Shown here one piece after another: positions 1-56,001 of a DNA stretch of 64,000 bases. Every line of letters starts with the position of its first letter. Positions within the stretch are counted from its first letter, which is position 1. The stretch comes from Paraeggerthella hongkongensis (GTDB lineage Bacteria > Actinomycetota > Coriobacteriia > Coriobacteriales > Eggerthellaceae): the NCBI RefSeq assembly GCF_003340345.1, contig NZ_PPTQ01000002.1, positions 62,001-126,000 of the forward strand, written 5' to 3'. Under the pieces are notes generated by a model. That model searched no databases. It had not been told where the DNA came from and worked only from the letters and a program-made list of their open reading frames with translations. A program made the position numbers and the translations under genes.

Positions 1-389
1 GCGCGGTCGATTGCGGCCATGCGCAAAGCGCTGAAAAGGCACAAGGTTGGGACGAATATCATGGGGACGTAGTACAGGTACCAGTACGCGATGGTCAGGG
101 ATTCGTTTGCGGTCCTGTATTTCACGAGCACTTCTCCCAGCCAGCATATAAGCAGAATCGCGATGATCACGAGGTAGCGTTTTGTGGCGGCATCCGAGCA
201 CCGCAGGCAAACCGAGAACGTCCAGACAACCAGCAGGGGAGCAAGAAGGATCATCGCGCCTGCTGCGTCGGCCGGTCCAAGGTTTGCTCTCGGCTGCGAA
301 GGCTCGGGCGCGGGCGCGTTCGAGAAGAGCTGCAGCGAAACGACTGCGGCCGCGAGAACGACCGCGCCGATGAGGGCGCACGCGCGCAC
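1..389 (-). CDS. Partial polytopic membrane protein, possibly a sensor kinase N-terminus
   Basis: Seen: the minus frame stays open from the window edge and reads as alternating hydrophobic segments. There is a first helix (about ALIGAVVLAAAVVSLQLF), then LLAPLLVVWTFSVCL, then YLVIIAILLICWLGEVLV, then a helix beginning YLYYVPMIFVPTLCLF. The start is unclear. GTG at 389 is the first plausible start codon. A purine-rich stretch (GGGGAGGTGAGGGG) lies about 60 nt further upstream, but no usual start codon follows it in frame. Inferred: this could be the sensor half of a histidine kinase or of a membrane-bound regulator; the catalytic part lies outside the window. Function not assigned. Confidence 0.6.
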   Translation of the reverse strand, partial: MRACALIGAVVLAAAVVSLQLFSNAPAPEPSQPRANLGPADAAGAMILLAPLLVVWTFSVCLRCSDAATKRYLVIIAILLICWLGEVLVKYRTANESLTIAYWYLYYVPMIFVPTLCLFSALRMAAIDR

Positions 390-496
390 GCGCCTGTCGA
401 AGCGGCTGCTTTCCGTTGCTCGTTTCCCCGTGGATGCGATGGTCCCCTCACCTCCCCGTATCCTGATAGCAGAATAATGGCTGATGCCCTTGCGGG

Positions 497-808
497 TTAC
501 AAGGCTTTCGGGTGCATTGTTGGAGTGTTGTCGACTTGAGGGCTCGAAGCGTTCGGCTTTCGAGTCCCGCTTTTCTTCGGGAGCGTTGCGTGGCGCACCG
601 GGGACGTGGTTCGCAAGGGCGACTGCGCCTGCAGGGCCTCTTTCTCTTTCGCGTTCACTTTGCGACGACGGTCGGCCGCCCGTTCCACCCAGGCGTCGCG
701 CGCCTTCTCGCTTTTGAATTCGTGCAGTACCGGCGACGTTTTCACGAACTTTTGCCCCATGCCCATTTCGTGACTGTCTTGGACCGCGTAATATGCCTTG
801 GCCTTCAT
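497..808 (-). CDS. Small hypothetical protein, 103 aa
   Basis: Seen: a soluble, charged protein starting MKAKAYYAVQDSHEMGMGQK. A basic central helix (residues about 33-58, rich in K, R, E and A) is followed by a low-complexity tail rich in T, S and P. The ATG has a GGAG about 8 nt upstream. There is no membrane segment or Cys cluster, and I do not recognise the family. A perfect palindrome of the GTTAG-N6-CTAAC type sits about 90 nt upstream (894-915). Inferred: it belongs to the same regulon as the AraC/ECF loci near 48-55 kb, which carry the same motif. Confidence 0.65.
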   Translation of the reverse strand: MKAKAYYAVQDSHEMGMGQKFVKTSPVLHEFKSEKARDAWVERAADRRRKVNAKEKEALQAQSPLRTTSPVRHATLPKKSGTRKPNASSPQVDNTPTMHPKAL

Positions 809-893
809 GACGCTGCTCCGATGCTCGTTGGAGAAGATGGGGCAGGGTGGAAGCGCCCTGCGGCCCGCACCTTCTGTAGGCGTTGCTTGTTTG

Positions 894-915
894 AAAGTTA
901 GTTTATACTAACTTT
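894..915. promoter_or_regulatory. Palindromic operator candidate, GTTAG-N6-CTAAC type
   Basis: Perfect 9-bp arms, AAAGTTAGT and ACTAACTTT, are separated by 4 nt. The core is GTTAG at 897-901 and CTAAC at 908-912. It lies between the end of the kinase gene and the start of the small hypothetical gene (both minus strand), about 90 nt upstream of that gene. The same core occurs at 48112, 49421 and 55324. Confidence 0.65.
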
Positions 916-951
916 GAGGAGATGCAAGAGCGTCCCATGCGCGCGGGGACG

Positions 952-2247
952 CTATGCGGGCTGCTGCTCCAGGGGAATGGCGATGCGGGCGACGAACGCG
1001 CCGCCGACGGTTTCGTACAGGGACATGCCCCCGTGCTTTTCCACGATGGCGTCCACGCTTTTGATGCCGAAGCCGTGTCCTTGTTCGGACGTCGTCGGTC
1101 TGTCGTTTTCCATGGTCACGGTCTTGCAGCAGGGGTTTTCGACAAGGACCAGCAACGTGCGGTCGTCGGCGCTCGTAATTGCCAGGCGAACCTCGCGGTT
1201 TCGACCGTCGTGCACGTTCGCGCAAGCGGTCACGGCGTTTTCCAGCAGGTTCGACAGCAGGGCGCACCACTCCGTGTCGCTTAGCGGCACGTGTCGGGAA
1301 AGGCTCGCCGTTACCTGCATCGACACGCCAAAGTGATGTGCCTTTGCGGAAAACGAGGACAGTATCAGGTTCGTCGTCTCGTCGTTGCAGAACCGCTGCG
1401 GAGTGATGTCGTCAAGGTCGGCTTCGATTTCCGCTAGGTACTCCTTGAGCTTTTCGGCGTTGCCTTCAGCAACCAAGTTGCTGACAAGCGCAAGGTGGTG
1501 GCGCATGTCGTGTCGGTAGGCTGCCGTTTGCGCGGTTGTCTCGCGCAATCGGCTGAGCTCGAGCTTGGCCTGGTCGAGCTGCGCTGCGGCGGCTTGCTGT
1601 TCCTGAAGCAGCACCTGCTTTTCGCGCGTGTTTTTGAATACGCGAAAGACCAGGTAGTACGACAGCACCGTAAGCACAAGGGGTACCAGGCGCGCGTTCA
1701 GCCCGGCAGGCAGGTCCGTGATGGAGAAGCTGCCCCGCGTTGAGAACGCGTACAGTTCGTACGTCAACGGAATCAGGGAGAACCGAGCGAAATCGCCGGG
1801 TTCGCCGTGCTTGAGCGCGTAGGCGACCAGGTTGCGGAATCCCTTTGCGGCCACAAGAAGCATCAGCGCGCACGTTGCGGCAAAGATGGCCAGCTCGGTC
1901 CAGGGCCCGGTTTCCCCGAATAAGCGCGCGACCGAATCCACGATAACGGGGACGGCGCAGGACACGAATGCGGTGAGGAACGCGAACGCCACCTTCCATC
2001 CACGATACGGGGAGATGATCGAGAATCCGATGAGAATCGGGACGTGCATGATCAGGGCGTATGCGTGCGCGTAGGCGGTGCGCCCGAACAGAAGGAACAC
2101 GGCGACGTTGACGATGATTGTGCCAAGGGCGAATGCGATCGCGATCTTCTTGCGCTGCGGCGGGATCTTGGCGGGCTGCACGTCGAGCAATACCCACATG
2201 AAGGCAACGGCGTAGACGGGCAGGATGAATACGGGTACGAGCGACAT
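952..2247 (-). CDS. Membrane sensor histidine kinase, AgrC/GHKL type
   Basis: Seen: 431 aa. Six or so hydrophobic segments fill residues 1-210. A coiled-coil-like linker rich in Q, A and L (about 211-240) leads to the phospho-acceptor motif RHDMRHHL (His near residue 246), an N box (LLSNLLENAVTAC) and a G box (GHGFGIKSVDAIVEKHGG). Known: this architecture belongs to the HPK10 kinases that pair with LytTR regulators and often sense peptides or membrane signals. The gene starts 4 nt after the stop of the response regulator gene, so the pair is one operon. The ligand is unknown. Confidence 0.92.
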   Translation of the reverse strand: MSLVPVFILPVYAVAFMWVLLDVQPAKIPPQRKKIAIAFALGTIIVNVAVFLLFGRTAYAHAYALIMHVPILIGFSIISPYRGWKVAFAFLTAFVSCAVPVIVDSVARLFGETGPWTELAIFAATCALMLLVAAKGFRNLVAYALKHGEPGDFARFSLIPLTYELYAFSTRGSFSITDLPAGLNARLVPLVLTVLSYYLVFRVFKNTREKQVLLQEQQAAAAQLDQAKLELSRLRETTAQTAAYRHDMRHHLALVSNLVAEGNAEKLKEYLAEIEADLDDITPQRFCNDETTNLILSSFSAKAHHFGVSMQVTASLSRHVPLSDTEWCALLSNLLENAVTACANVHDGRNREVRLAITSADDRTLLVLVENPCCKTVTMENDRPTTSEQGHGFGIKSVDAIVEKHGGMSLYETVGGAFVARIAIPLEQQPA

Positions 2248-2251
2248 GCCG

Positions 2252-2974
2252 TTACGCCATTTCCGCCTGCATGAACAACCGCTTCAAGTAGGCGGCTTTG
2301 ACCTCGCCGAACAGTCTGCGCGATACGGGGACTGACTCGTCCGAGAACGTGCGCAGGCTTAGCTTCTCCAGCCCTTGAATCTGATCAAGATTGACGATGA
2401 ACGCCCGGTGGGTTCGGATGAATTCGGGTCGGCTGAGAAGCTGCGGCTCGTAGTCCGAAAGCGACCCGGCAACTTCTCGCACGCTCTTGTCGGTCAGGTG
2501 GAAGCGTACGGTTCGGTTGAGCACTTCGACATAGGCCATGCGCGCGAATGGGATGTTGGCGGCCCCGCTCTTGAGCTTAACAGCCAGCCCCGCGTCGTGC
2601 CCTTCGATGTGCAGCCGCAGCTTGTCGAGCATGGGGAGCAGCTTGTCGTAGCTCACGGGTTTCAGAAGGTAATGGAACGCGTCGACCTCGTAGCTTTGAA
2701 CGGCGAATTCGGGTGATGAGGTGAGAAACGCAATCTTGACGTTTTCGTCGAACTCTCGGATTTCCCGAGCGATCTGCATACCGTCGACGAAAGGCATCAT
2801 GACGTCGAGCAGCAGTAGGTCGAAAGCCTCGTTGCGCACGTCATCGAATAGTGCAACGCCGCTGGTGTAAGCGGCGAGGGAGAGGCTGGCTTTCGTTTCC
2901 CGACGGTATCTGTCGAGCAAGTTCGCGAGCACCGCCAGGTCTTTGGGGTTGTCTTCGCAGAGTGCGATGCGCAC
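2252..2974 (-). CDS. LytTR-family response regulator
   Basis: Seen: 240 aa. An N-terminal receiver domain has the acidic pocket (CEDN near residues 6-9), the phospho-acceptor Asp about residue 57 in LLLLDVMMP, and Lys in LLKPVS. The C-terminal part (about 140-240) matches a LytTR DNA-binding domain, including FIRTHRAFIVNLDQI and VSRRLFGEVKAAY. Known: such regulators bind direct repeats upstream of their targets. It is first in an operon with the kinase gene and divergent from the surface-protein gene at 3163. Two ACSGTTTGYG-like repeats lie in the shared intergenic region. Confidence 0.95.
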   Translation of the reverse strand: MRIALCEDNPKDLAVLANLLDRYRRETKASLSLAAYTSGVALFDDVRNEAFDLLLLDVMMPFVDGMQIAREIREFDENVKIAFLTSSPEFAVQSYEVDAFHYLLKPVSYDKLLPMLDKLRLHIEGHDAGLAVKLKSGAANIPFARMAYVEVLNRTVRFHLTDKSVREVAGSLSDYEPQLLSRPEFIRTHRAFIVNLDQIQGLEKLSLRTFSDESVPVSRRLFGEVKAAYLKRLFMQAEMA

Positions 2975-3076
2975 GGTGTTGCCTTTCTGGCCGGTGTTGA
3001 GTTCCTTGGGGTATCGTCGTTGAACGCAACTGGAAACGTCACCGCTTTTCCCGTTCCGTTCATGTTTGAAAATCTT

Positions 3077-3102
3077 ACCGTTTGTGCAGAAAACGGTTTG
3101 CG
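3077..3102 (+). promoter_or_regulatory. Candidate LytTR direct-repeat site
   Basis: Two similar decamers, ACCGTTTGTG (3077-3086) and ACGGTTTGCG (3093-3102), are 16 nt apart start to start in the divergent region between the LytTR regulator and the surface-protein gene. They resemble the family half-site built around GTT. The usual start-to-start spacing is nearer 21-22 nt, so this is only a candidate. Confidence 0.35.
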
Positions 3103-3162
3103 TATTGAATTATATGACATGATTGCCCTCAAAATGCATGAAATTAAACGAAAGGAAAGCCG

Positions 3163-4971
3163 ATGGGTAAACGATGGGCGAGCGCGTTTGCGGGAGCGGT
3201 CCTGCTGCTTGCTTTGATGCCGGTGGCGGCGTTTGCGGCGGAACCCGCTGCGTCGTTTGGCGGCGGCACCGGGTTGGAGGACGATCCGTACCTGATCGAG
3301 AACGAGGCCCAGTTGCGCGCCATGGGAGCCGGACTGAACGACGGCACCCTCTCGAACGCGAGTTTCAAGTTGACGGCGAACATCGATCTCGCTGAGGCTT
3401 GGGATGCTCCTTGCGGGACGTATTCCGGCACCTTCGATGGAGGCGGGAGGACGATCTCCGGCTTGGTTGTCAACGGCGGCGCTTCGCAGGCGTCGTTGTT
3501 CGGCATGGTGAAGGGCCGTATCGTGAATCTGGGGTTGGCGGACGTTGCTGTGACCGGGGGGAACTACGCTGGAGCTTTGGCGTCGGAGTTGCGGGGAGGC
3601 GTCGTTTCGCGTTGCTTCGTTTCGGGTGCGGTCAGCGGCAATGACTCCGTGGGCGGGTTGGTCGGCGCTGCTACCGGCCGCGCGCTTATCGAGAATTGCT
3701 ACAGCACGGCTTCCGTGACCGGATCGGCAAGCTCTATTGGCGGCATTGCGGGCTTCGTGCGCACGGGTGTCAATATCTCGTATTCCTATAGCACGGGCAT
3801 GGTGCAGGGGAAAGAGGTGGTCGGCGGCATCGTGGGCAACGTGGACAACTACCAGGGCGAGAATACCATCAAGAATTGCGCCGCGCTCGGTTCGTCCGTT
3901 ATTGCGACGAGCGGTGCCTCGTCGGCAGGTCGCGTCTGGGGCAACGCTGTAAATGAAAACGTATTTACAGCTTCGAATAATTATGGGTTTGCGGGCATGA
4001 GCGTTGGCATTGGGTCGTCTGATATCGCGCCTGAGAAGGGTGCCGAGACGAAGGACGGCGCGGATGCATCCGCAACGGACATCGTCGACGCATCGTGGTG
4101 GCAGCGTCAAAACGGACTCGGGTTCATGGCGGCTCCTCTGGGCGCTTGGACGTTTTCCTCTGGGAACCTGCCTGTGCTGATGGGCGAGAAGAACCCGATT
4201 CCCACTCATATTGCGTCCGAGGCCGTGTGCACCGTTTCGTTCGACGTTGCTGGCGGCAGCGCCGTGGAACCCCAAACGGTTAAGGCCGGATCGAAGGTCG
4301 CCAAACCGGTCGACCCGGTAAAGAGCGGCGCGACGTTCGGCGGATGGTGCAAGGATTCCGCATTGACGGTTCCGTGGGATTTCGAAAGCGATACGGTTGC
4401 CTGCGATACCACGTTGTACGCGAAGTGGACGGCTTTGGCGCCGGTGTACGTCGACCGCACCATCGTGGACGAAAAGAGCTTGGTCCAGGTGAGTGGGAAG
4501 CTGACCGAGGGCGCTGTGCTCGAAGTGGCGCCCTTGTCCTCGGGCGCTGCGTACCAGGCGGTTTTGGCGCAGGCCGGCCGTGAGGGGCACGACGTGCTTT
4601 CCGCGTACGAGGTGCGCTTGACGGGCGGCTCGTACGAGGGCGCGTTGCGGCTGTCGTTCCCTTTGGATAGGAAGCACGATGGGGAAACGGTCACGGTTCG
4701 CCATCTGAAGGCGGATGGGACCTTGGAGACGATGACGGCCGAATGCGCGAACGGGAAGGTGCTGGTCAGCGTGGGCGAGCTTTCATCTTTCGCCTTGACG
4801 GTGCCAAAGGACGTGCAGGACGGCAAGATCGTGTCGGCGGCTGAGGCTCAGCCTAAGACGTTGGTTAAAACGGGAGATACGTCGAACATGATAGCTATGG
4901 CCTTGATCGCGTGCGTTGCGTTCGGCGCCGTTGCGCTGGGCGCGGTTGGTGTACGCAAGCGCAGCGAATAA
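3163..4971 (+). CDS. Sortase-anchored surface protein with GLUG and InlB-type repeats
   Basis: Seen: 602 aa. There is a signal peptide (residues 1 to about 25, ending AFA-A), then GLUG-like repeats (GGLVGAATG, GGIAGFVR, GGIVGNVD; about 120-240). An InlB B-repeat/Listeria-type module follows, with a VSFDVAGGSAVEPQTVK core and a GGWC...LYAKW ending (about 347-425), then a beta-rich region. The C-terminus is LVKTGD, a hydrophobic helix and RKRSE, a variant LPxTG sorting signal. AAAGGAAA precedes the ATG. Inferred: an adhesin-like cell-wall protein, perhaps controlled by the divergent LytTR system. Confidence 0.9.
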   Translation: MGKRWASAFAGAVLLLALMPVAAFAAEPAASFGGGTGLEDDPYLIENEAQLRAMGAGLNDGTLSNASFKLTANIDLAEAWDAPCGTYSGTFDGGGRTISGLVVNGGASQASLFGMVKGRIVNLGLADVAVTGGNYAGALASELRGGVVSRCFVSGAVSGNDSVGGLVGAATGRALIENCYSTASVTGSASSIGGIAGFVRTGVNISYSYSTGMVQGKEVVGGIVGNVDNYQGENTIKNCAALGSSVIATSGASSAGRVWGNAVNENVFTASNNYGFAGMSVGIGSSDIAPEKGAETKDGADASATDIVDASWWQRQNGLGFMAAPLGAWTFSSGNLPVLMGEKNPIPTHIASEAVCTVSFDVAGGSAVEPQTVKAGSKVAKPVDPVKSGATFGGWCKDSALTVPWDFESDTVACDTTLYAKWTALAPVYVDRTIVDEKSLVQVSGKLTEGAVLEVAPLSSGAAYQAVLAQAGREGHDVLSAYEVRLTGGSYEGALRLSFPLDRKHDGETVTVRHLKADGTLETMTAECANGKVLVSVGELSSFALTVPKDVQDGKIVSAAEAQPKTLVKTGDTSNMIAMALIACVAFGAVALGAVGVRKRSE

Positions 4972-47411: not shown

Positions 47412-48029
47412 CTAGGATTTCATTCCTATCAAGACGCATTCGGGGACAGGACCGCCTTCGACCAGATTGGCGCTGATCACATGGAAGCCGCAGTTTTGGA
47501 CGAAGGAAGCCAGTTCTTCGGACGTCCATTCGTGGAACGTCTTGAAGCCGACCGCCTCCATCAATCGCAGCCTTGCAGGGGATGCTACCCGGTCGTGGAC
47601 GAACGTCGGGGCCAGCAGGAAACCGCCCGGTTTCAGAACGCGATGCGCCTCGCGCAGTGCGAGTTCGGGTGCGGGCATGACGTGCAGCGCATTGGCGACG
47701 ACCACGGCGCCGAAGGACGCTTCGCGATAAGGAAGGCTCGTGGCGTCTTGCACGGAGAAAGAGACGCGGCTTTCAGGCGATCGCGTGCGAGCCTTTTCGA
47801 TCATGGCCTCAGAGAAATCGGTAGCCTCCCAAGAGCGGACTCTCCCTGCAAGCGCGAAGGTCAGCTGCCCGGTTCCACAGGCCAGTTCAAGCACGTCGAT
47901 GTCCCTTTCCAGCCAGTTTCTCAATTCTCGGCACAGCTGAGGGTAAGGCCCGTTGCGCCTTTCGACAAGGGGCGCGTACAGGGGCGCGACCTTGTCCCAG
48001 AACTTCTTGTTCGGTTCGCTGTTCGACAT
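47412..48029 (-). CDS. Class I SAM-dependent methyltransferase, 205 aa
   Basis: Seen: motif I VLELACGTGQLTFALAG, then ATDFSEAMIEKAR, FSVQDATSLPY, FGAVVVANALHVMPAP and ALREAHRVLKPGGFLLAPT, an UbiE/Methyltransf_11-type fold. The operator-like palindrome at 48112-48127 lies about 85 nt upstream of its ATG, the same motif that lies beside the AraC/ECF divergons. Inferred: co-regulated with them and possibly modifying the imported ligand or its precursor. Substrate unknown. Confidence 0.9.
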   Translation of the reverse strand: MSNSEPNKKFWDKVAPLYAPLVERRNGPYPQLCRELRNWLERDIDVLELACGTGQLTFALAGRVRSWEATDFSEAMIEKARTRSPESRVSFSVQDATSLPYREASFGAVVVANALHVMPAPELALREAHRVLKPGGFLLAPTFVHDRVASPARLRLMEAVGFKTFHEWTSEELASFVQNCGFHVISANLVEGGPVPECVLIGMKS

Positions 48030-48111
48030 AAAGCAGCTCCTGGTTGGGCGGGGAAGGGGGGTGCTTGCGACTTGTGCTTCGCGCGGCTTTCGATCCGTGC
48101 TTCAATTAGAA

Positions 48112-48127
48112 ATTAGCTATATCTAAC
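48112..48127. promoter_or_regulatory. Operator candidate, ATTAG-N6-CTAAC
   Basis: ATTAG CTATAT CTAAC, flanked by AA and TTT like the other copies. Upstream of the methyltransferase gene. Confidence 0.65.
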
Positions 48128-48233
48128 TTTGGATGCTACCGCTCGCGATGCTCTTTGTCAAACCGACGAGCCAATCTAGGCGGTCGGGTGGAAAACGGCA
48201 GACGGGACGGCAAAGGGCCGCATGGACCCTGCG

Positions 48234-49211
48234 CTAGCGCATTCGCTTGCCGCGCATGGCGCTTGGGGCTATGCCGGTATGGCGCCTGAACGCCTCGGCG
48301 AACGCCGCCGGTTTTCTATAACCGACCTTTGCGGCAATATCGGCCACGGGCATGTTGGTGGTCCGTAAGAGCTCGGCAGCTTCTTCCATGCGCGCTTCGG
48401 TAACGAAAGCGTTGGGGGATGCTCCGAAGTAGCTTTTGAACGTTGCCTTGAACTTCGTTTGGCCCATGCATGCGCGATGGGCCAGCACGTTGCAGGTAAG
48501 GTTCGCGCTCAGGTTGTTTCTAATGAAGCTACCGACGTTGTCAAGCGATTTCCGGTCGTCGAGCGGCGGCAAAGCACTTTCTCGTCCGGCATCCTCTTCT
48601 TCGATCTCGCTTGCTCGTTTGATGATGAGCGCCAGCGCTTCGGCTACGGCCCCTTCGTAAAACAAGTCAGCTGCCATGCCGGCGCCTCGATAGCGTTTGA
48701 TCTGCTTGAAGAGGGCGATAAGCTCCGGGCAGTCCGGTCTTCCGTCGACGAGCAGGAAAGCCTTGCGCATGTCGGGTATATTGCCGAACCGTTCATGCAG
48801 GTAGGTTCTGTAATAGTCCGGCGATACGGTGATCGACGTGGCCTGCACGGTCGAGCCAGGAGAAAAGCGCGCCACGTACTCGTTTCCTTCGCTTGCGATG
48901 TAGGTGGAGACCGTTCCGGGCCTCGGCGTGGCAGTGCGGGCTTTTGCGATCAAGCCGGCTTTGTCGTAGTAGCTAACTGAAAGGTGCTCGGTATGGCGAA
49001 AGCGCATGATGCCTTGGCTTTTGAACTCGATTCGAAAAGCACTGACGGCGAAGAAGTTGTCTCGAGAATAGACCCAGTATTCGCCCGACCCTTCTTCGTT
49101 GTCCATCCGGTACGAGCATCCGGCTTGCGCATAGGAGCGCTCCGATGCGACCGGCGTCATGTTCCATTGCTGAAACGCCTTGTCGTACAGGTCGCTTTTT
49201 ATATCGAGCAT
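48234..49211 (-). CDS. AraC-family regulator of the first ECF cassette
   Basis: Seen: 325 aa. The N-terminal sensing domain has no family name visible to me. The C-terminal pair of helix-turn-helix motifs (NLSANLTCNVLAHRACMGQTKFKATFK and MPVADIAAKVGYRKPAAFAEAFRRHTG) is standard AraC/XylS and resembles PchR/YbtA siderophore regulators. The start at 49211 (MLDIKSDLYD) has AAGGGA upstream; 15 further codons in frame lack a site. Divergent from the ECF S-component gene, with an operator-like palindrome between. Confidence 0.92.
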   Translation of the reverse strand: MLDIKSDLYDKAFQQWNMTPVASERSYAQAGCSYRMDNEEGSGEYWVYSRDNFFAVSAFRIEFKSQGIMRFRHTEHLSVSYYDKAGLIAKARTATPRPGTVSTYIASEGNEYVARFSPGSTVQATSITVSPDYYRTYLHERFGNIPDMRKAFLLVDGRPDCPELIALFKQIKRYRGAGMAADLFYEGAVAEALALIIKRASEIEEEDAGRESALPPLDDRKSLDNVGSFIRNNLSANLTCNVLAHRACMGQTKFKATFKSYFGASPNAFVTEARMEEAAELLRTTNMPVADIAAKVGYRKPAAFAEAFRRHTGIAPSAMRGKRMR

Positions 49212-49420
49212 GCTCGCGTTCCCTTTCCTTCGATTGCCGATGCCCTCTGTCGTCATCGCGAAAAAATCAAACAGCCGAAAGAACGCAAGGCTCCCGCTCT
49301 TTCGCGCACGGGCAAAGGCGTCGAAACGACGCAGCCTTGTCTGGTCGCCTTAATGCCGAAATCGGCCGGTTGTTGCTTGAGCTGTGTTTCCTTATGAAGT
49401 CATCGACTATTATAGCAAAA

Positions 49421-49436
49421 GTTAGCTAAAGCTAAC
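49421..49436. promoter_or_regulatory. Operator candidate, GTTAG-N6-CTAAC
   Basis: GTTAGCT-AA-AGCTAAC, 7-bp arms, in the AraC/ECF divergent region, 44 nt before the S-component ATG. No gene in 49212-49479. Confidence 0.7.
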
Positions 49437-49479
49437 CATAACCGATTGATAAGCCGTTGGCTTGAAAGGAGCGCTCGTT

Positions 49480-50136
49480 ATGTCGCAAGCGGTATACGAT
49501 CGAGGGGAAGACGCCTCGTCTTCTCAGTCCTCGAAACGAGGCGGGGGCTGGACTACCCATGACGTTTTAACCTTTGTCGTTTTCAACATCATCATTGTTG
49601 TTGTTACTATGGCGGCGAAAATGGTGGAGGACATGCTGCTATCGCCTCAGAATACTTTCTTCGTTGGGTCATGGCTGTTTCCGCTGCTCGCAACACCTTT
49701 TTACCTGGTTATGGCCGACCGTATAGGAAAACGCGGAGTGTTGAGCGCCTCGATCATCGTCTTCGGCATTTTCTACGCGATCATGGGCGGCTTGTATTGC
49801 ATTCCCGTGGCTATCGTCGGCGCGATCGTGGGCGAATTGCTTATGTGGGGGAAGGGTTCGTATCATAAGGTGAAACGCGTTGTGCTGGGCTACTACGTGT
49901 ACTGGGTTGCATTCGCCTTCTACGGAATAGTTCCGTATCTGCTGTTCAAAGAAGCTTACATGCAGCAGTTGGGTGCGTACTACAGCGCCTCTGACATCGC
50001 TGCGATGGTGGCTCAATATACCGAGCTGCCATGGATTGTTCTTATGCTGGCTATGTTCGCTGCCGGTACGTTCGCGGGTGGTTTTATTGGCGGCAAGTTC
50101 TTGAAAAAGCATGTCCGCAAAGCGAAGATCGCGTAA
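49480..50136 (+). CDS. ECF transporter S component, MptD/Trep_Strep family
   Basis: Role: membrane substrate-binding subunit of an energy-coupling-factor importer. Seen: 218 aa, about six helices. LVMADRIGKRGVLSASIIVFGIFYAIMGG and the end GGFIGGKFLKKHVRKAKIA are typical of the family. The ATG at 49480 has AAGGAG 8 nt upstream; six earlier in-frame codons are not needed. First gene of an S-T-A operon. The substrate of this family is not settled; iron-complex loci often carry it. Confidence 0.9.
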   Translation: MSQAVYDRGEDASSSQSSKRGGGWTTHDVLTFVVFNIIIVVVTMAAKMVEDMLLSPQNTFFVGSWLFPLLATPFYLVMADRIGKRGVLSASIIVFGIFYAIMGGLYCIPVAIVGAIVGELLMWGKGSYHKVKRVVLGYYVYWVAFAFYGIVPYLLFKEAYMQQLGAYYSASDIAAMVAQYTELPWIVLMLAMFAAGTFAGGFIGGKFLKKHVRKAKIA

Positions 50137-54276: not shown

Positions 54277-55305
54277 TCACCCTGCCTGCTCTCTCCTGTA
54301 TTCCAAGGGCGACATATTGTGTCGGCGCTTAAATGCGGCAGCGAATTTACTTTGGTTCTCGTAACCAACGTTCAGCGCCACGTCGGACACGCGCATTCCT
54401 CTATCTGACAATAGCAGGTCGGCGGCTGCTTCCATCCTGATTCTCCTGCGATAGTCGGATATGTTTTCCCCGTAGGCGCGCTTGAAGTAATCCTTCAAGC
54501 TGGTAGGGTTTGTTTGCAGCTTTTCGGCTATGCGGGCTATGGGATCCTTGTTGGTCAGGTCGTTTCGAATGATTCGCGCTGCGTCATGAGCAAGCTTCGC
54601 TTGGACTGAGGTTAGGTAATGCGAATGCTCCTCAGCATTTTTGTTCGACTGCTCTATCTCCACCAAAAGCAGAAGAGCCATGAGCCTTAGCCTGTCCAGA
54701 TTAGCAGAGGATCGCAAAGCCCAGATTTGTCTGAGCGTCGCCTCGAGGCTCCCCGACACCGAATGAATGAACAACTCGTCATCAAGAGACATTCGCTCAA
54801 CCAGGTCTGCGGGGCTTACCGCGAGGGTCGATAGGGCGGTAGAGGTGCCCGCGGCTACCTTGTCCAAGTCGATAAACAGCTCTATGCCCTCGTAATGCCC
54901 GCTGGGATAGGTGAATTGGCCGGATGCATACTGGGTGCCGATGGCGATATGGTCGGGCTCCATGAACAAGTGCATTCCCGTATCCAGATTCGTCTCGCAC
55001 CTGCCCTCTACGCAATAGTTCACCAGTAAGATATGCGAATTGCTTGGCATGACCGCGGGCAGAACACAGCTGTCGACTTGGTTGAAGCAAAGATCAAAAC
55101 CCTCAAATAGGTGGACTATCCGCATGCTTCCGCCGTCATTGGGAAACTGCATCGACGAAATGGAATCATCGATTGGGATGATTCGGAGGCCGATGTCCGC
55201 ATCGAGGTTCTGCTGCTGCCATTTTTCCGTGGCGAGAGGCAGCTGCTCTATTGTTCCGACGGATGGAGCTAAAGCGGACTGATGGAGTTGGAGAACGTCT
55301 GGCAC
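54277..55305 (-). CDS. AraC-family regulator of the second ECF cassette
   Basis: Seen: 342 aa. An N-terminal sensing domain is followed by two helix-turn-helix motifs (DPIARIAEKLQTNPTSLKDYFKRAYG and MRVSDVALNVGYENQSKFAAAFKRRHN), as in AraC/PchR-like proteins. The longest frame begins with TTG at 55323, abutting the operator palindrome and without a ribosome-binding site. GTG at 55305 has GAAAGG 9 nt upstream and is preferred. Divergent from the second ECF operon. Confidence 0.9.
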   Translation of the reverse strand: MPDVLQLHQSALAPSVGTIEQLPLATEKWQQQNLDADIGLRIIPIDDSISSMQFPNDGGSMRIVHLFEGFDLCFNQVDSCVLPAVMPSNSHILLVNYCVEGRCETNLDTGMHLFMEPDHIAIGTQYASGQFTYPSGHYEGIELFIDLDKVAAGTSTALSTLAVSPADLVERMSLDDELFIHSVSGSLEATLRQIWALRSSANLDRLRLMALLLLVEIEQSNKNAEEHSHYLTSVQAKLAHDAARIIRNDLTNKDPIARIAEKLQTNPTSLKDYFKRAYGENISDYRRRIRMEAAADLLLSDRGMRVSDVALNVGYENQSKFAAAFKRRHNMSPLEYRREQAG

Positions 55306-55323
55306 AGAGGGTAACCTTTCCAA

Positions 55324-55339
55324 GTTAGCTTAATCTAAC
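55324..55339. promoter_or_regulatory. Operator candidate, GTTAG-N6-CTAAC
   Basis: GTTAG CTTAAT CTAAC with flanking AA and TAA, 48 nt before the second S-component start and 19 nt before the preferred AraC start. Confidence 0.7.
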
Positions 55340-55386
55340 TAATCTATTGTCCCACACTGTTAAGGTGCTTTGAAAGGAAGATTTAC

Positions 55387-56001
55387 GTGTCTGAGCAAAC
55401 TATCCCATCGAAAACAACCTCGTCGAAGAAGCTGGAGGGCAAGGACCTCATCAATATCGGCATCTATGGAGCTATTTACTGCGTGCTGATGACCGCAATG
55501 GCCATGATTGGATTCATCCCCGTCCTCATGCCCCTTGTGTGCGTTCTCATTCCCTTGGTGTGCGGCATCCCTATGGTGCTCTTCATGACGAAGATAAAAA
55601 AGCCCGGAATGCTGCTGATCATGAGCCTGATCTTGGGTATCTACCTAGCAGTCACCGGCATGGGCTTCTGGGTCATCCTCATTGCTGCCATCACGGGCTT
55701 TCTGAGCGAGCTCGTCTTGAAGAGCGGCAACTACCAAAGCGCTTCGAAACTCATCTTGGCGCATGGAGTGTTTTGTATGTTTATCTGGGGAAACTTCCTG
55801 CCGATGTTCATCGATTCCGGCTATTATACCAATCTGCTTGCAGGAGGTTATACGCAGGAATACGTTGAAGTGCTCATGGGAATCTTCCCCATGTGGAGTG
55901 CTCCGATTTATCTGGTAGCTTGCTTCGTGTTTGGCATCATCGGCGGCTTTACCGGCAAGGCCATCTTGAAAAAGCACTTTGTCAAAGCAGGCATCGCATA
56001 A
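55387..56001 (+). CDS. ECF transporter S component, MptD/Trep_Strep family (second copy)
   Basis: Seen: 204 aa, about six helices, GTG start with AAGGAAG 6 nt upstream. FMTKIKKPGMLLIMSLILGIYLAVTGMGFW and the end GKAILKKHFVKAGIA match the family and the copy at 49480. Its stop codon overlaps the next ATG by one base. First gene of a five-gene operon with T, A and two ABC half-transporters. Confidence 0.92.
   Translation: MSEQTIPSKTTSSKKLEGKDLINIGIYGAIYCVLMTAMAMIGFIPVLMPLVCVLIPLVCGIPMVLFMTKIKKPGMLLIMSLILGIYLAVTGMGFWVILIAAITGFLSELVLKSGNYQSASKLILAHGVFCMFIWGNFLPMFIDSGYYTNLLAGGYTQEYVEVLMGIFPMWSAPIYLVACFVFGIIGGFTGKAILKKHFVKAGIA

Follow-up and report, generated by a model that had tools for sequence, protein, structure and literature searches.

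A palindrome upstream of a small Paraeggerthella gene as a candidate operator of a DtxR-family iron regulon

The small gene and its surroundings

The window, i.e. the whole stretch of 64,000 nucleotides that was analysed, carries at 497–808 of the minus strand a gene for a basic protein of 103 amino acids. The gene for a GHKL sensor histidine kinase lies upstream on the same strand (952–2247), and that for a LytTR response regulator follows at 2252–2974 (minus strand), so that the first-pass annotation had correctly placed the small gene beside a LytTR pair. Divergently from this pair, 3163–4971 encodes a protein that is predicted to be secreted and contains GLUG and Listeria-Bacteroides repeats. 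Downstream of the kinase stop codon falls a 22-bp palindrome, AAAGTTAGTTTATACTAACTTT (894–915, without strand assignment), in which the same annotation had seen the most perfect copy of an operator shared with ECF transporter loci. The palindrome is confirmed and is separated from the start codon of the small gene by 85 nt (809–893, minus strand), including a GGAG ribosome-binding site conserved beside the ATG. The palindrome contains a −10-like element (TAAACT/TACACT in the two Paraeggerthella species), located 16 nt downstream of TTGCAT/TTGTTT. This assignment was made by eye; a promoter scan showed no sigma-70-like promoter above threshold at 780–1000.

The 103-aa protein has a pI of 10.3 and a GRAVY value of −1.0, is free of cysteine and, by its composition, is predicted to be soluble. 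The fold model (two-row alignment, mean pLDDT 69.7) consists of a β-hairpin (residues 3–31), a helix (34–61) and a disordered tail. No confident structural relatives were returned (best Foldseek E 0.79; best VIA-align Z 2.9), and signatures of transport or enzymatic function were absent. Out of 138 Eggerthellaceae genomes, two gave convincing matches. The sole known orthologue is that of P. hongkongensis (G076, the one other genome of the window's genus in this search), with 88% identity over the aligned part and a shorter tail. Over codons 1–76 the two genes differ mainly at third positions (2, 3 and 13 differences at positions 1, 2 and 3) and dN/dS is 0.11. Judged from these comparisons, 497–808 is a true protein gene under selection and is restricted to the genus. 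A further match in G064 (E 1.5e-4) lies inside a protein that looked unrelated by eye and was rejected.

Searches at greater distance returned little more. A scan of the GTDB-220 genome collection, in which the window's own genome is possibly not contained, gave one named locus. When 396 genomes of the class were searched with a profile, the two genus members came up together with weak, scattered matches (best E 4.5e-4, then at least 0.0025). Some match at E ≤ 1 was present in 176 of the 396 genomes; these weak matches, with inconsistent query ranges and stops in many of them, were taken as probable chance. No distant relatives were found in PHROGs, plasmids, phages, viral contigs or PDB sequences. 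Weak local similarity to DUF6823 (PF20709) at residues 21–82 scored 17.4 bits, under the Pfam gathering cut-off of 25 bits; a search for this family in the 138 genomes gave zero matches, as did its controls, so that its absence is not settled.

In P. hongkongensis the orthologous kinase gene is likewise followed by the orthologous small gene. The kinase is itself restricted to the genus at E ≤ 1e-60 (2 of 60 genomes searched), and synteny of the small gene therefore cannot be traced beyond it.

The palindrome and its copies

The arms of the palindrome (894–902 and 907–915) form an inverted repeat of 9 bp with 100% complementarity and a 4-nt spacer, reading AAAGTTAGT-TTAT-ACTAACTTT. The 22-bp pattern AAAGTTAGTNNNNACTAACTTT, searched with up to three mismatches, has one match in the window and none in 100 shuffles. 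The shorter pattern GTTAGTNNNNACTAAC at the same tolerance gave eight matches in the window versus 6.9 expected, which is chance level; the statistical case is therefore made by the perfect copy and by the comparison between genomes. With AAAGTTAGN6CTAACTTT, up to two mismatches yielded six sites in the window genome and four in P. hongkongensis, versus none for the reversed control in either; at up to three mismatches the counts were 11 versus 1 and 8 versus 3. In both genomes the palindrome of the small gene is the sole copy with zero mismatches.

The P. hongkongensis orthologue carries AAAGTTAGGTTACACTAACTTT at nearly equal distance. The arms are identical at 16/16 positions, versus 3/6 in the centre and 74/120 in the remaining intergenic DNA (Fisher p = 0.0008). 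Whether orthologues keep the palindrome had been put forward as a check, and the answer is yes for the sole orthologue found, a thin sample of one. All eight P. hongkongensis sites listed at up to three mismatches precede genes with a matching site in the window genome: the small gene, the DUF3793-flavodoxin genes, an ABC pair with ECF genes, a periplasmic binding protein with FecCD, a NEAT-domain protein, a methyltransferase, a MATE transporter (whose counterpart in the window genome has four mismatches and is outside the three-mismatch set there) and a second ABC pair. Conversely, 7 of the 11 window-genome sites have a counterpart among these eight, those without being the two ECF copies of the window, C51:69920 and C53:106433.

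At up to three mismatches, one copy in the window genome precedes a NEAT-domain protein gene, after which a Shp-like protein for haem binding, a periplasmic binding protein and FecCD are encoded. Other copies lie before a second periplasmic binding protein gene, accompanied by those of FecCD and an ATPase, and at two loci where ABC half-transporters are encoded in pairs; one of these two also has Trep_Strep ECF genes of its own. We infer a resemblance of these half-transporters to YbtPQ; for the one tested, the nearest NCBIfam model was MsbA, below cut-off. Further copies in this set belong to the DUF3793-flavodoxin genes, to C53:106433, to the methyltransferase and to the two window ECF loci with AraC-type and Trep_Strep genes. 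The methyltransferase gene (47412–48029, minus strand) is a predicted regulon member with its copy, GAAATTAGCTATATCTAACTTT, at 48109–48130. A copy is also found before its P. hongkongensis counterpart (L133). At the ECF loci, AAAGTTAGCTAAAGCTAACCAT (49418–49439) lies between an AraC-type gene (48234–49256, minus strand) and a Trep_Strep ECF S-component gene (49462–50136, plus strand), and CAAGTTAGCTTAATCTAACTAA (55321–55342) between a second such pair (54277–55323, minus strand; 55387–56001, plus strand). The claim that these loci carry the same operator thus stood as far as two copies exist there, but they differ from the pattern at 2 and 3 of its 16 fixed arm bases.

Weaker copies, with 4–5 of the 16 fixed bases changed, were seen between feoA and feoB, upstream of a DtxR-family gene, at a third Trep_Strep gene, as a tandem pair before DUF6110 and P1B ATPase genes, and at the MATE transporter. 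Loose matching of the core across the genome (82 versus 199 for the control) was not above control, so each weak copy (feoB, dtxR, third Trep_Strep, P-type ATPase) taken alone is possibly due to chance; copies with 4–5 mismatches count only jointly with the other genomes. The exact TTAG-N6-CTAA is present in only 7 of 21 sites, hand-chosen by the author as likely regulon members.

The DUF3793-flavodoxin genes, which have the operator before them both in Paraeggerthella (L132 251–1522; C51:121515) and in another genus (G032, L045), are likely an iron-sparing switch. In both Paraeggerthella species, an operator copy lies in the region between divergent genes of an AraC-type protein and a MATE transporter (L056 4456–7026; L135).

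Across the family, 79 of 138 genomes contain a match at up to two mismatches; the reversed control also matches in many, and single matches therefore mean little. Among the 75 sites listed for G001–G066 (41 other family genomes), 13 are within 5 kb of a DtxR-family gene listed for those genomes, versus 0.44 expected, a proximity that partly reflects the adjacency of dtxR to feoB, itself a target. A homologue of a window-genome regulon protein was encoded at 17 of 30 site loci (one per genome, from the first genomes with a match) versus 1 of 18 control loci, these being loci of weak protein matches, unmatched in position relative to genes. With ABC-only loci removed (L026, L035 and L047; control L106), the counts were 14/30 and 0/18. 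The site loci include feoAB (six loci), P1B ATPase genes (three), DUF3793-flavodoxin genes (L045) and a dtxR gene (L046); AraC and Trep_Strep genes occur together at L040, L049 and L052. In G001 (L023), six of seven matches read AAAGTTGGGCCGTACCAACTTT in either orientation and the one examined adjoins a transposase-like gene and is probably the end of an insertion element. The six were kept in the DtxR-proximity counts.

Candidate regulators

DtxR-family proteins were found in 132 and FUR-family proteins in 75 of the 138 family genomes, and the window genome encodes two of each. Searches of 12 genomes from genera g2 and g3 found no FUR-family protein in any of them and DtxR-family proteins in all 12; the operator is nevertheless located at feo loci in G002, G003 and G007 and, judged by its distance to the DtxR gene, in G011.

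For IdeR/DtxR proteins of Actinobacteria, a 14-bp one-dimer consensus, TTAGGNNNNCCTAA, is proposed in PMC8464063. Positions 898–911 read TTAGTTTATACTAA, i.e. inverted TTAG...CTAA half-sites in a 14-bp frame with the half-site spacing of TTAGGNNNNCCTAA. The match is not full, as the inner bases are T and A, not G and C; according to the same text, some single changes to the site are tolerated while a double change is not. The 19-bp two-dimer form TTAGGTTAGSCTAACCTAA is not found either, TTAT and TTTG replacing TTAG and CTAA of the second half-site pair. As expected of a DtxR/IdeR-type operator, the copies are located before iron acquisition genes.

A candidate regulator is encoded at the feo locus (C23, L058:8051–8431). 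Its 126 residues contain Fe_dep_repress and Fe_dep_repr_C domains, both over cut-off, and the nearest models are those of MntR, under their cut-offs. By eye it combines an MntR-like N-terminal Asp with a DtxR-like Cys (EACLMEH), features that bear on whether the ligand set is of the Fe(II) or the Mn(II) type (PMC3672683). The presence of the operator at feo loci in g2/g3 genomes in which no FUR protein was found, the TTAG-N6-CTAA frame and the DtxR domains of the feo-linked protein together point to a DtxR-family repressor. The second DtxR-family gene of the window genome adjoins an FmdE gene and a FecCD permease gene (L084 1216–3168).

We regard it as likely that 894–915 is an operator of a chromosome-wide iron regulon, predicted as a one-dimer DtxR/IdeR-type iron box, most likely for one dimer of a short DtxR-family metalloregulator, the first candidate being the protein encoded downstream of feoAB. 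The iron regulons of Actinobacteria described in PMC8464063 share the half-sites and their spacing, iron uptake targets and a DtxR-family gene; they differ in that here the full 19-bp two-dimer site is missing, the centre deviates, and the candidate regulator has 126 residues and is nearest to MntR models. A second parallel is EqbA of the equibactin locus of Streptococcus equi, which PMC3672683 presents as a DtxR-like regulator that mixes features of MntR and DtxR and belongs to a locus for ABC-type siderophore import; the regulon described here, by contrast, extends across the chromosome.

Three other readings were weighed. The palindrome might be an iron operator of a FUR-family protein (Fur, PerR or Zur type), since one of the two FUR-family genes is encoded beside the site at C6:66259, divergent from an operator-bearing ABC/ECF locus. 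Its nearest NCBIfam model is a Bacillus Fur, far below cut-off, but the same gene adjoins a ZnuA/AdcA-like gene (L053 8260–10344), so that it may be a Zur. The persistence of the operator at feo loci in genera where the family was found in none of the 12 genomes argues against this reading, as does symmetry: that of the operator is even, unlike the Fur box with its odd 7-1-7 symmetry. We consider a FUR-family operator unlikely. Slightly less probable still is a target of AraC-type regulators such as those at the ECF loci, with the small gene in the regulon of such an activator. AraC-type genes do lie beside the operator at both window ECF loci and at L055, the third Trep_Strep locus. In both species one is divergent from the MATE gene, another accompanies the methyltransferase gene of P. 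hongkongensis, and more are found at operator loci of other genomes (L039, L040, L049 and L052). Relatives of the two window AraC proteins were, however, not found (E ≤ 1e-4) around the small gene, the first ABC/ECF locus and the periplasmic binding protein, nor around the feoB/dtxR, P-type ATPase, NEAT and flavodoxin copies, the stretches searched being L053, L054, L058, L059, L061, L062, L125, L126, L128, L130, L131 and L132. Moreover, AraC proteins usually bind direct repeats, and the site is palindromic. We read the AraC-type genes as co-regulators of their own loci.

Instead of binding a protein, the palindrome could also act as an RNA hairpin, for instance by terminating transcription of the kinase operon or by attenuating that of the small gene. 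Its position directly after the kinase stop codon would suit this, and the RNA folds to a 9-bp stem at −7.0 kcal/mol. The stem is AU-rich, though, a terminator scan found none, and Rfam gave no match at E ≤ 0.1 in 1–3200. The arms also recur before unrelated iron genes, some of them right at the ribosome-binding site, which makes a hairpin role very improbable.

Proposed role in the iron response

With a DtxR-family repressor as the preferred reading, the following model can be drawn. When iron is present, the Fe(II)-loaded repressor would sit on the palindrome and cover the probable −10 of the small gene's promoter, shutting it off. Its release under iron shortage would then allow the 103-aa basic protein to be made together with the products of the iron-uptake and flavodoxin genes. 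The protein is thus probably one made under iron starvation, as far as the operator allows a prediction. The first-pass annotation had proposed a regulon that includes this uncharacterised protein. That part is retained, as the operator is common to ECF loci and iron-uptake genes, but the ECF-specific framing proved too narrow: its distribution suggests an operator for iron genes in general, of DtxR-family type. The literature searched, on Eggerthella and iron regulation, contained no account of such an operator for any member of the Eggerthellaceae.

As for the protein itself, our tentative guess is that it assists the iron-starvation response as an accessory factor in the cytosol. More speculative is the idea, drawn by analogy, that it may be a newly evolved, genus-restricted effector that binds RNA or protein when Coriobacteriia spare iron, a functional parallel to Fbp of Bacillus with a DtxR-type repressor in the place of Fur. 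The Fur-regulated FbpA, FbpB and FbpC of Bacillus subtilis are small, basic and under the control of an iron repressor; in PMC7430163 they are suggested to aid the iron-sparing sRNA, without direct evidence of RNA binding. The likeness is one of size, charge and control, the last being predicted here; by comparison with that account, the repressor belongs to another family and no sRNA partner is known. No Fbp-type match of the 103-aa protein was seen in Pfam or NCBIfam.

If the reading is correct, the iron-responsive genes of a gut-bacterial family could be mapped by means of this operator, and an orphan protein of 103 residues would be tied to a testable condition, iron starvation.
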